From: a virus
DNA length: 25,453 nucleotides
Virus record (IMG/VR): IMGVR_UViG_3300009184_000192
Location: 1-25,453 of that record
Reading direction: 5' to 3' (one strand)
The notes under the pieces are model-generated. The model saw only the letters and a program-made list of their open reading frames with translations. It did no database searches and was not told the DNA's origin. How positions within the stretch are numbered: the stretch's first letter is position 1; the number at the start of each line of letters is the position of its first letter. The translations under genes and the position numbers were made by a program. Below, piece after piece: positions 7,119 through 20,468 of this stretch.

Positions 7119-7397
7119 TTAGATTGCTTCGTTGTTTAGATAGGTAACACCCTTGCGAGTGCTAACATTAGCCCCTAAAGCCCTTAGACGGCTTTTAGTG
7201 GTCGGAGTTGACCAACGGCGTAGAGTGTCGGTGTTAGTCATTACAAAACCAGTGCCACCATTTACATCGGCTATGTGGTTGCCGTGTAGGAATACTGCAC
7301 AATTTACATCGTCAATAGGTCGTACTGATGTATTGCCTGATTGCCAAGATTTACGATTGTAAACAGCGTTAAGCATTTGTTGTTCAATTTTTCTCAT
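7119..7397 (-). CDS. Conserved T7-like early-type protein (92 aa)
   Basis: Starts MRKIEQQMLNAVYNRKSW and ends with a segment TPTTKSRLRALG then TRKGVTYLNN. This pattern of N-terminal helix, strand with VFLHGNHIADV, then TTKSRLRALG is one I remember in small proteins of many podoviruses and siphoviruses, without a known role. It is basic, unlike most neighbours, so nucleic acid binding is possible. The ribosome binding site is TTGGAG, 8 bases from ATG. It is the first gene after the hammerhead at 7435-7486; its leader begins at the cleavage site. Confidence 0.8.
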   Translation of the reverse strand: MRKIEQQMLNAVYNRKSWQSGNTSVRPIDDVNCAVFLHGNHIADVNGGTGFVMTNTDTLRRWSTPTTKSRLRALGANVSTRKGVTYLNNEAI

Positions 7398-7434
7398 TTG
7401 TAATACTCCAATCTAAAGTTAAGATAATGCGTTT

Positions 7435-7486
7435 GACTAAGACACCCTCTCGAGTGTTTCGGGTATTGAACCCTCATCAGTTAGTC
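7435..7486 (-). ncRNA. Hammerhead ribozyme, type I (copy 1)
   Basis: Read on the minus strand, all parts of a hammerhead are present. Stem I is GACUAA (7486-7481) with UUAGUC (7440-7435). The core is CUGAUGA (7480-7474). Stem II is GGGU/ACCC (7473-7470 and 7464-7461) with a 5-base loop. GAAA (7460-7457) follows. Stem III is six pairs closed by the GNRA loop GAGA (7451-7448), ending in U16.1 and C17 at 7442-7441. Cleavage is predicted between 7441 and 7440. The ends lie in stem I, which makes it type I. The first base belongs to the stop codon of the upstream gene. Confidence 0.93.
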
Positions 7487-7677
7487 TATACAGTCTGACC
7501 CCAAACCTCCGCTAAGTCAATATCTGATACCAACTCATCAAGTGACTGGGTGTCTAACCCCTCCAGTATATCTTCCTCCAACATTAACAAATTTTCCAGC
7601 AGTTGCTCCCTTGTGAATGTTTTCCACTGGATTAACTCACTTCTGAGAATGGTTTGAATCTTTTCTTGCTTGGTCAT
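7486..7677 (-). CDS. Small acidic helical protein (63 aa)
   Basis: A helical, acidic protein with leucine-rich spacing (LLENLLMLEEDILEGLDTQSLDELVSDIDL) and no recognised family. ATG 7677 has the ribosome binding site AAGGGAG in the same TAGATAAGG-type leader found before three other minus-strand genes. Its TAG stop (7486-7488) supplies the first base of the hammerhead at 7435-7486, so ribozyme cleavage leaves this message with a compact structured 3' end. Function unknown. Confidence 0.72.
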   Translation of the reverse strand: MTKQEKIQTILRSELIQWKTFTREQLLENLLMLEEDILEGLDTQSLDELVSDIDLAEVWGQTV

Positions 7678-7700
7678 AATATTACTCCCTTATCTAATGA

Positions 7701-7862
7701 TTAAATAATAACTGCCTTCCAATCAGAGCCTTCGCCCGTCATTACTTTACAGTAGTCCTGATATTGTGACCATGTAATTTTAGCGTGTAAGACCCAGCGA
7801 GATTTGTTTAACAGGTCTTTTTCCCACCAAAGTATTGCTACTGATTTGCGTTCGTATGTCAT
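7701..7862 (-). CDS. Small Trp-rich protein (53 aa)
   Basis: A 53-residue frame starting MTYERKSVAILWWEKDLLNK and ending SDWKAVII. It has five Trp residues and a basic N-terminal half. The ribosome binding site AAGGGAG lies in the leader GTAGATAAGG (7874-7883), and the leader itself begins 32 bases upstream at the cleavage site of the hammerhead at 7889-7940. Spacing to its neighbours is as expected for a real gene. It is not recognised, and it was found by hand translation. Confidence 0.65.
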   Translation of the reverse strand: MTYERKSVAILWWEKDLLNKSRWVLHAKITWSQYQDYCKVMTGEGSDWKAVII

Positions 7863-7888
7863 TTTAAATACTCCCTTATCTACTGTTT

Positions 7889-7940
7889 GACTAAGACCCT
7901 ATTTCTAGGGTTTCGGCTCATTAAGCCTCTTCAGTTAGTC
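7889..7940 (-). ncRNA. Hammerhead ribozyme, type I (copy 2)
   Basis: On the minus strand: stem I is GACUAA (7940-7935) with UUAGUC (7894-7889). The core is CUGAAGA (7934-7928), where the variable seventh position is A. Stem II is GGCU/AGCC with a 5-base loop (7927-7915). GAAA (7914-7911) follows. Stem III is six pairs closed by the GNRA loop GAAA (7905-7902), ending U16.1 C17 at 7896-7895. Cleavage is predicted between 7895 and 7894. The UAA stop of the upstream gene (7937-7935) forms half of stem I. Stems II and III differ from copy 1 with compensating changes. Confidence 0.93.
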
Positions 7941-8192
7941 TTCGTAAACACCCAGTTCACCGCCATTTATCCACTCAGCGTGAAGACCAAATTTGCTGAG
8001 TATGTCTGTGATTACTGGCGATACACCAAACTCCCAGTCTTCCCGCATATAAGCGTAGTAGTCACAGAATTTGTAACTGTCAGCCTCTTCAGCGCTGATT
8101 GCAAAGTGTTCCATATCGCTACGCTGATAGGTTGGTACGCCAGCGTTTTGTAGAGCCTGTAATGCTTTTTTGTATTTAGTGATTGTTTTCAT
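7935..8192 (-). CDS. Hypothetical early protein (85 aa)
   Basis: The first leftward gene after the central control region. It starts MKTITKYKKALQALQNAGV, giving a basic helical N-terminus, followed by an acidic aromatic segment (CDYYAYMREDWEFG) and a short end (GGELGVYED). It is not recognised. The ribosome binding site AAGGA sits in the leader element CAGTAGATAAGG (8200-8211). Its stop codon TAA is built into stem I of the downstream hammerhead, so ribosomes finishing this gene would disrupt the ribozyme fold until they leave. Confidence 0.75.
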   Translation of the reverse strand: MKTITKYKKALQALQNAGVPTYQRSDMEHFAISAEEADSYKFCDYYAYMREDWEFGVSPVITDILSKFGLHAEWINGGELGVYED

Positions 8193-8491: not shown

Positions 8492-8577
8492 GTTAGTGTC
8501 TACTAACTTAATTCTGAGCTGTGGAATGTTAGTAATGACTAACTTTCTAGAGCTGTGAAGTGTTAGTGATGACTAAC
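8492..8577. repeat. Three tandem dyads GTTAGT-N4-ACTAAC
   Basis: Perfect 6-base inverted arms around 4-base centres occur at 8492-8507 (centre gtct), 8528-8543 (aatg) and 8562-8577 (gatg). Start-to-start distances are 36 and 34 bases. The second and third copies also share flanking AGCTGTG. Regular spacing of about three helical turns and conserved arms with variable centres suggest binding sites for a dimeric protein, or origin iterons. Confidence 0.7.
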
Positions 8578-16964: not shown

Positions 16965-17468
16965 ATGGCGACAATAGTTAAATTAAAAAATAGTGTAACA
17001 ACAACCGCTGCTCCTAGTTCGCTAGTACAGGGCGAAGTTGCCGTTAACGTAACAGACAAAAAAGTCTGGGTCGGTAACGCAGCTTCTTCTCCAGTTCAAG
17101 TACTTGGTGCTGGTGCTACAGTAGCTGGCACAACATTAACCATGACTGGTGATGGAACATTCAGCGGTACTGGTCAAGTTAAGGTTCCAGCAGGAACTAC
17201 AGGACAGCGTAGCGGTTCTCCTGCTGCCGGTATGATGCGTTATAATAGCACTACTGGCACATTTGAAGGTTATACCACAGCTTGGGGTTCTATCGGTGGC
17301 GGTGCTACTGGTGCTGGTGGCGATGCAGTCTTTCAAGAAAACTCTAGGACTGTAACAACTAGCTACACACTAACTACTGGAAAGTCTGCATCTACTGTAG
17401 GTCCTATTACAGTAAATAGTGGTGTTACTTTAACTATTCCATCTGGTGAAAGATTGGTGATTCTGTAA
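16965..17468 (+). CDS. Fibre-associated or adhesin protein (167 aa)
   Basis: Starts MATIVKLKNSVTTTAAPSSL and contains QGEVAVNVTDKKVWVG, a module found in many phage fibre and tail-tip proteins. The centre is Gly/Thr-rich (GMMRYNSTTGTFEGYTTAWG), the common fibre pattern before a tip domain, and the end is TIPSGERLVIL, also typical. It is a secreted-looking beta protein without cysteines. The homing endonuclease gene starts at its stop codon (TAATG). It is probably part of the receptor-binding apparatus. Confidence 0.75.
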   Translation: MATIVKLKNSVTTTAAPSSLVQGEVAVNVTDKKVWVGNAASSPVQVLGAGATVAGTTLTMTGDGTFSGTGQVKVPAGTTGQRSGSPAAGMMRYNSTTGTFEGYTTAWGSIGGGATGAGGDAVFQENSRTVTTSYTLTTGKSASTVGPITVNSGVTLTIPSGERLVIL

Positions 17469-17995
17469 TGAATTTATATTGGATTCACCACAAAGACCAC
17501 TCTGACATCTTTAGTCAGGGCTATGTTGGCGTGTCCAATAATGTTGAAAAACGATGGTATGACCACAAAACATATACCAATAATGCCCATTTAAAACATT
17601 CTATGGAAAAGTATGGGTGGGACAACTTAATTAAAGAAGTTGTTTTAATTGCCGATGAAGATTATTGCTTAGATATTGAGAATAAACTCAGACCAAGTGA
17701 TAAAATAGGTTGGAATATTGTAATGGGCGGTGGAAAACCTCCTAGTGCATTGGGTAAGAAATTTGTTCGTTCTGAAGAATATAAGCAAAAACAAAGATTA
17801 GCCAAAGTAGGCAAATCCTCTTGGAATAAAGGGCTTAAACTTACAGAAGAACAAAAAGCCAAACAATTTAACCTTGCAGAATATATGAAAGACAGAGTTC
17901 GTCCAATGAAAGGCAAAAGTCATAGTGAAGAAACTAAAGAAAAAATCCGACAAACAAAATTGTCGCAATCTAGGAGCAAACAATGTCTAGCGTAA
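17468..17995 (+). CDS. GIY-YIG homing endonuclease (175 aa)
   Basis: A free-standing mobile endonuclease. The GIY-YIG domain shows YWI near residue 4, GYVGV (18-22), Arg29 and His33 in KRWYDHK, the catalytic Glu71 in LDIENKLRP, and Asn83 in GWNIV. The positions match the catalytic set of the family. Two NUMOD3-like DNA-binding motifs follow (SSWNKGLKLTEE, and GKSHSEETKEKIRQTK). It is Lys-rich and differs in composition from the Thr/Ser/Gly-rich fibre genes around it. It overlaps both neighbours (TAATG at the start, 13 bases at the end), so it is neatly fitted between fibre genes without visibly breaking them. Confidence 0.92.
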   Translation: MNLYWIHHKDHSDIFSQGYVGVSNNVEKRWYDHKTYTNNAHLKHSMEKYGWDNLIKEVVLIADEDYCLDIENKLRPSDKIGWNIVMGGGKPPSALGKKFVRSEEYKQKQRLAKVGKSSWNKGLKLTEEQKAKQFNLAEYMKDRVRPMKGKSHSEETKEKIRQTKLSQSRSKQCLA

Positions 17996-19953: not shown

Positions 19954-20468
19954 TGACCACAATCATTAACGGCACAAGTAGTGCTATAACATTCCCTGAT
20001 TCTACTGTTCAGAATACTTCAGCTATTGTTAGTGGATATGTACCTTATGCAAATCTGCCAGCAGGTAGTGTATTGCAAGTGGTTCAAGGTACTTACTCTA
20101 CAAATACTTTTAATTCAACAGGAACATTAACAGATACAAATTTAACGGCAACAATTACCCCTAAATTTTCTACAAGCAAAATTCTTGTATTAGTTAATCA
20201 GGCAGGGGTAGTAGCCTCAAATTCATTAAGTGGTGTAACACTTACCTTGTTTAGAAATTCAACATCAATACTTGGGTTTGGTTTGTATATTGGCTACGCA
20301 TCCGCAGACAATATTACAAATGCTTCAACTGCTTATCTTGATTCACCAGCGACTACTTCAGCAACAACTTACAAAACGCAATTTTGTAGAACAACTGGTT
20401 CAGGAAATACTATTGTTCAAGCCAATGGAGCTTCTTCTACTATTATTCTTATGGAGATTGCGGCATGA
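19953..20468 (+). CDS. Fibre or adhesin protein (171 aa)
   Basis: Starts with an INGTSSAITFPDSTVQNTS module, used by many phage fibre proteins to join the shaft. It continues as a Thr/Ser-rich beta domain (TYSTNTFNSTGTLTDTNLTA and following) and ends with ASSTIILMEIAA, a hydrophobic final strand. It is comparable in size to the C1q-like protein upstream and may be an alternative tip. It overlaps both neighbours (TAATG before, ATGA after). Confidence 0.75.
   Translation: MTTIINGTSSAITFPDSTVQNTSAIVSGYVPYANLPAGSVLQVVQGTYSTNTFNSTGTLTDTNLTATITPKFSTSKILVLVNQAGVVASNSLSGVTLTLFRNSTSILGFGLYIGYASADNITNASTAYLDSPATTSATTYKTQFCRTTGSGNTIVQANGASSTIILMEIAA

Follow-up and report, generated by a model that had tools for sequence, protein, structure and literature searches.

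Tandem type I hammerhead ribozymes at gene joints of a tailed-phage leftward operon, with loop II coupled to the bases flanking stem I

The leftward operon of a tailed phage, contained in the stretch of DNA analyzed here (hereafter the window; 25,453 nucleotides, IMG/VR record IMGVR_UViG_3300009184_000192), carries tandem hammerhead ribozymes that probably self-cleave its polycistronic mRNA at the joints between genes, a reading to which we assign a probability of roughly 0.7. The two copies lie on the minus strand at 7486–7435 (copy 1) and 7940–7889 (copy 2) and, by their sequence, are true type I hammerheads arranged in tandem, with self-cleavage predicted for both. A full core with all stems, compensatory changes among relatives, the position at gene joints, and a coupling between loop II and stem I speak for the mRNA-cutting role; the ordinary folding energy of copy 1 in a 121-nt context, the optional presence of the ribozyme, and the lack of an Rfam match at threshold speak against it.

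Read from 7486 to 7435, copy 1 consists of GACTAA, CTGATGA, GGGT-TCAAT-ACCC, GAA, ACACTC-GAGA-GGGTGT, C, and TTAGTC, and it was identified by direct reading of the core and stems, by a structural descriptor, and by a covariance model. Stem I comprises 6 bp (7486–7481 with 7440–7435), the CUGAUGA core occupies 7480–7474, and stem II comprises 4 bp (GGGU/ACCC, 7473–7470 with 7464–7461) closed by loop II UCAAU (7469–7465). The GAAA element at 7460–7457 is followed by stem III, whose 6 bp (7457–7452 with 7447–7442) include A15.1–U16.1 and are capped by a GAGA loop, and by C17 at 7441, with the predicted cut between 7441 and 7440. The open end is stem I, stems II and III both being closed by loops, as defines type I. 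An initial sequence-only reading had given CUGAUGA, GAAA, and UC in this order on the minus strand, which is exact base for base, and had correctly counted 6, 4, and 6 pairs with a GAGA loop, recorded every core residue of the hammerhead consensus, and placed the cut at 7441/7440, 43 nt (7440–7398) before the ATG at 7397. Its call of a type I hammerhead with a second copy is supported by the core, the stems, and compensatory changes in hundreds of relatives. The location that it gave, between two genes, is right in that the ribozyme sits at a gene joint, but the first base of the ribozyme doubles as the last base of the upstream TAG (7488–7486); its label of "early" for the genes is a reading from gene content.

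Copy 2 was identified by the descriptor and the covariance model, with a predicted cut at 7895/7894. Its stem I is that of copy 1, and it has stem II GGCU/AGCC with loop UAAUG and stem III ACCCUA-GAAA-UAGGGU. The CUGANGA/GAAA/UH core and stems I, II, and III are thus present in order in both copies, which are spaced 454 nt apart. Over 57 nt the copies share 79% identity, and where stems II and III differ the changes are paired. Many relatives have two to nine hammerhead copies. Cleavage at both predicted sites would release a putative RNA of 454 nt (7441–7894, minus strand) that carries the 53- and 63-aa genes with both open reading frames intact, and the ends of which could pair, stem I being common to the two copies.

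Applied to the whole window, the descriptor matched only copies 1 and 2, and 1000 dinucleotide shuffles gave 4 loose and 0 strict matches. The covariance model was built from 60 relatives (A2), a hand-picked subset, with no window rows, of an 87-row alignment (A1); it scored copy 1 at 71.8 bits (E 2.9e-16) and copy 2 at 69.1 bits (E 1.4e-15), the E-values being rough, and the third-best site in the window at 13.6 bits. Chance resemblance of the copies to a hammerhead is ruled out by the shuffles, these scores, and the flank-shuffle test given below. A stem-I-like inverted repeat at 20387–20421 (AGAACAACTG...TTGTTCAA; 13.6 bits) lacks most of the core and is probably a chance occurrence. When each copy is folded alone, the minimum-energy structure is the hammerhead (z −2.0 for copy 1 and −4.1 for copy 2); in a 121-nt context the hammerhead shape is kept, with an energy that is ordinary compared with shuffles (z 0.07 and −1.09, respectively).

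The sequence-only reading had proposed a match to the Rfam hammerhead models above threshold as its check, and in this respect it failed: Rfam release 15 gave no match at the gathering score in the window, and at E ≤10 only copy 2 appeared, matching type III weakly at 20.9 bits where the cutoff is 48.5. The search itself works on phage DNA, returning eight tRNAs in five named-phage loci, and it returned no matches in 15 related loci although the descriptor gives 56 complete type I hammerheads there. Because Rfam misses 56 of 56 complete relatives, its use as a refutation test is invalid for these copies. The silence of Rfam is a gap in its models, and recognition by Rfam is a detection aid, no defining trait of a hammerhead.

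Relatives were collected by pattern scans of viral contigs. The first scan (core plus TCTTAGTC) returned at least 120 stretches, which contain at least 75 complete type I hammerheads. The second, for the core and stem II/loop II only (CTGANGAGNNYTNAWTRNNCGAAAC), returned at least 120 stretches and 115 new loci, in which 134 of 141 motifs among the matches listed are part of complete hammerheads. Over four scans, stems I and III are also present in 298 of the 319 distinct core plus stem II motifs among the matches listed, compared with 256 of 15,950 (1.6%) in a flank-shuffled control. With a stem I of ≥6 bp and a stem II of ≥4 bp required, at least 519 distinct type I hammerheads were counted, in at least 343 loci; duplicates were dropped by sequence context, which reduced one set of relatives from 77 to 67 and the gene-joint set from 274 to 234. 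A search of genomes from 84,980 species of bacteria and archaea with the same core pattern yielded just 29 stretches with 31 motifs, 18 of them complete (stem II of 13 nt only), and the element therefore looks mainly viral.

In the 87 aligned rows, which include the window copies, have stem III of 16 nt only, and were picked for pairing and therefore pair at 100% by construction, 14 of 16 pairs vary on both sides (6 of 6 in stem I, 3 of 4 in stem II, and 5 of 6 in stem III), with a covariation score of.849 versus.165 in shuffles. Within a set unbiased for stem I, dozens of different stem I sequences are represented. The element is present in the Pelagibacter phages HTVC019P, HTVC131P, and Jormungand (where its neighbors are ardA, MarR, and integrase genes), in Flavobacterium phage elemoC, and in Agrobacterium phage OLIVR1, and the PaP3 hammerhead, tested in 2011, scores 33 bits by the covariance model. 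Among named phages, pelagiphages HTVC115P and HTVC104P have the primase closest to that of the window (52% identity). Type III hammerheads, with stem III open, were also seen in the same or similar phage loci (L237 9940, L600 994, L143, L158, L177, L181, L202, L227, and L231), several of them with almost the same stem I hairpin and stem II.

The bases that flank stem I follow the class of loop II. In both window copies stem I is flanked by conserved A residues that form an A.A mismatch, 5′ at 7487 (copy 1) and 7941 (copy 2) and 3′ at 7434 and 7888 (all minus strand); loop II is of the UNAWU class in copy 1 and reads UAAUG in copy 2. The UNAWU class has a stem I of exactly 6 bp, bordered by A on either side. 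A first tally among the matches listed gave A.A in 348 of 348 UNAWU and 7 of 7 UAAU hammerheads, in 58 of 66 with other U-initial pentaloops, and in 0 of 11 with GNRA loops (7 C.T, 4 T.T). The flank prediction for GNRA loops was written down first and followed by a fresh scan for such loops, which yielded, among the matches listed, 124 motifs and 67 distinct complete hammerheads in new loci. All 53 of these with a 6-bp stem I have T.T (41) or C.T (12), and the other 14 have a stem I of 4, 5, 7, or 8 bp, those of 7 and 8 bp having A.T or G.T there (all among the matches listed). Over all data, for a stem I of exactly 6 bp and again among the matches listed, A.A accompanies UNAWU in 353 of 353 cases, and the GNRA class has U as the 3′ flank in 68 of 68, Y.U in 62 of 68, and A.A in none. 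Lineage does not account for the rule, since nine loci among the matches listed hold both loop classes and the rule is kept in each. Beyond the flanking mismatch, nine registers per class showed no clear excess of helix (maximum.068 versus.039 for UNAWU and.074 versus.035 for GNRA).

As the class of loop II predicts the flanks of stem I, the coupling, taken from sequence comparison, is most simply read as loop II making a tertiary contact with the end of that helix; it would also imply selection for fast cleavage. The contact between the stem II loop and stem I by which hammerheads are judged is thus seen here as covariation only, and extended hammerheads are described as having a comparable contact in other forms (PMC3088659). 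The open literature searched, which included PMC3088659, PMC6155905, PMC7761336, PMC11300833, and PMC10085705, yielded no account of the loop II/flank code; the code is new as far as searched, and overlap with the alignments or Figure S5 of Perreault 2011, or with subscription papers, is possible. L677 3799 and L704 7783 show a further loop II class of 6 nt, UGUAUU or UGCAUU, in which stem I is CCGUAA and the flanks are A.C; it is perhaps a third docking module.

All genes adjoining the two copies are on the minus strand. Copy 1 follows a 63-aa gene of no family (7486–7677), the TAG of which shares its last base with stem I, and precedes a 92-aa gene (7119–7397) of PHROG 554/Pfam Kyano_Gp96. 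Copy 2 follows an 85-aa gene (7935–8192), the TAA of which (7937–7935) is the core-side half of stem I, and precedes a 53-aa gene (7701–7862), both of no family. The leader remaining after the predicted cut would be 43 nt in copy 1 (7398–7440), a leader also present in some ribozyme-free relatives, and 32 nt in copy 2 (7863–7894), with an AAGGGAG ribosome-binding site. This arrangement is usual: among the matches listed, an open frame of at least 50 codons ends close to 347 of the 365 hammerheads with 400 nt upstream. The stop codon of this frame and the ribozyme overlap in 228 cases, the stop precedes the ribozyme by ≤15 nt in 93, and it is more distant in 26. The commonest stops among the matches listed are UAA on the core side of stem I (53), the UGA of CUGA (48), UAG with its G common to stem I (47), and a loop II stop of either UAA or UGA (45), and these places in stem I, core, and loop II therefore supply stops in all three frames within ∼20 nt. 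Both window copies fit the pattern, copy 1 with the G of TAG and copy 2 with TAA. Where both neighbors were called (218 hammerheads), 186 lie between co-directional genes, and the predicted cut precedes the start codon by a median of 32 nt (n = 181 between co-directional genes), both counts among the matches listed.

Two other features of the window were recorded. The divergent region that precedes the leftward genes contains three operator-like palindromes, GTTAGT-N4-ACTAAC (8492–8577); a link between them and stem I was considered and dropped, as such palindromes recur in 12 of 78 primase-relative loci, whether or not these carry hammerheads. A GIY-YIG endonuclease with NUMOD3 (Pfam) at 17468–17995 is probably a free-standing homing endonuclease.

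From the sequence, the covariation-supported structure, position, copy number, and coupling, we infer cleavage, docking, and an effect on the mRNA as follows. As RNA polymerase passes, each copy would fold into a stem I of 6 bp, a stem II of 4 bp, and a variable stem III, loop II would dock where stem I ends in A.A, and self-cutting would follow after C17, splitting the polycistronic mRNA at gene joints. Hammerhead cleavage leaves a 5′-OH and a 2′,3′-cyclic phosphate. The upstream piece would accordingly end just past its stop codon in a compact stem II/III fold bearing the cyclic phosphate, and the downstream piece would start with the 5′-OH and a leader of 32–43 nt with a ribosome-binding site. 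Cleavage in vitro has been published for tandem hammerheads of prophages, and for one set of them cleavage in Escherichia coli as well (PMC3088659). A more elaborate form of the proposal, in which the ribozymes are exchangeable joint cassettes that close the upstream reading frame, cut the mRNA, and provide a new 5′ end, form a large Rfam-invisible subfamily with a two-letter docking code (loop II UNAWU for a stem I ending in A.A, GNRA for one ending in Y.U), and have their cutting timed by terminating ribosomes, is doubtful as a whole and is put forward tentatively.

The stop codons that overlap the ribozyme in 228 of 347 cases among the matches listed are also consistent with a translation-gated switch, in which ribosomes finishing the upstream gene would cover the ribozyme and folding and cutting would occur only once translation thins or stops. 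Such overlap could, however, arise without gating from compact phage genomes and the stops built into the motif, and we regard a switch of this kind as unlikely.

The tandem arrangement bears on a further alternative, that the two cuts free the 454-nt RNA (7894–7441) and a hammerhead ligates its ends into an RNA circle (or a spliced RNA), the 3′ end being the ribozyme half of copy 1, which would pair with the 5′ end UUAGUC. Consistent with this, stem I is the same in both window copies and stems II and III differ; across 36 contig clusters (stem II of 13 nt only) the same-contig excess is.68 for stem I versus.24 for stem II and.32 for stem III (Wilcoxon p 7e-4 and 1e-3), and 41 of 76 adjacent pairs among the matches listed are fully cross-compatible, compared with 8.3 by random re-pairing. 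The other 35 of those 76 listed pairs, however, are incompatible. Orthologues too keep stem I best (excess.92 versus.64 and.60), and slow change of stem I therefore explains much of the sharing signal. Moreover, joining in the circle direction is about as frequent as in the splice direction (37 versus 34 of 61, again with stem II of 13 nt only), and Perreault 2011 sought circular or spliced products and reportedly found none (PMC3088659). Circularization as the main role was rejected: its signal is strong before clustering, but after clustering and comparison with orthologues it is largely as expected from a slowly changing stem I. Circles are possible, especially for the window pair (454 nt), yet are not favored, and we consider them distinctly unlikely.

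Judged from the loci compared, the ribozyme is a discrete, dispensable module at the phrog_554 joint. Among 80 loci with the phrog_554 gene, 25 (22 distinct) retain the window-type leader; 6 of the 22 have a hammerhead, the other 16 have a conserved GTAAA-type sequence instead, and L322 has the exact leader of the window without the ribozyme. Cutting at this joint is thus not essential, because the ribozyme is absent from most loci with the same gene and leader. Hammerheads are present in 12 of 80 primase relatives by the descriptor and in three more loci by the covariance model. A fixed link between the ribozyme and phrog_554 was rejected, as the descriptor places a hammerhead immediately upstream of the gene in only 8 of 80 loci (one of them, L353, being a 5-bp variant), with L345 added by the model. 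In L321, L322, L324, L330, L340, and L343, a conserved AGTAAACTTAA...TATC(C/T)TAACTT leader replaces the ribozyme upstream of the phrog_554 gene.

The filled and empty forms of one joint, with the leader unchanged, would suit a border at the DNA level, a stop-bearing conserved joint for small-gene swaps in which cleavage is a side effect or selfish, and, among pairs with similar upstream DNA, the downstream DNA is also similar less often at ribozyme joints (73 of 151) than at control joints (162 of 231); but the converse is nearly equal (71 of 129 versus 166 of 277), the coupling of loop II to stem I points to selection on the RNA fold, and this explanation is highly improbable. The swap comparison used 1190 control joints, with sums over bins and pairs that are not independent, and on its mixed result ribozyme joints are not clearly more swap-prone than others.

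Hammerheads of this kind, and the idea that they process mRNA, have been in print since 2011 (PMC3088659), and the role of hammerheads in phages has been called an open question (PMC6155905). Added here are a large subfamily that escapes Rfam, the fixed position of its members on stop codons, carriers among cultured phages, and the loop II/stem I code. Exact predicted cut sites are provided in the cultured phages HTVC019P, HTVC131P, Jormungand, elemo, and OLIVR1, the covariance model finds hammerheads that Rfam misses, and the loop II/flank classes constitute a natural double-mutant series for the hammerhead tertiary contact that is amenable to in vitro kinetics.

The tandem hammerheads of Perreault 2011 are alike in that several close copies flank small unrelated genes, and processing of a long phage transcript was proposed for them (PMC3088659). 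The two window copies likewise lie close together and flank small phage genes, and the Agrobacterium setting in that paper resembles the ardA/MarR/integrase surroundings in Jormungand (PMC3088659). The window differs in being a phage contig with no integrase seen, with a uniform 6-bp stem I and a fixed flanking mismatch coupled to loop II. With animal type I hammerheads (RF00163) the copies share the open end in stem I, the core, and the order of parts. They are missed by the RF00163 model, and their stem I stops at 6 bp with no longer helix beyond, whereas in animal type I hammerheads stem I is longer and contains an internal loop. As in retrozymes and viroid-like circular RNAs, two direct hammerhead copies bound a unit of a few hundred nucleotides; unlike in these, the setting is a DNA phage operon with coding genes between the copies, adjacent copies are often incompatible, and no replication or retrotransposition features of that kind were seen at the window pair. 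RNase III sites cut the polycistronic early mRNA of T7 between genes, and the ribozyme pair would be a host-independent counterpart of these sites, the RNA of the window being proposed to cut itself with no host enzyme.
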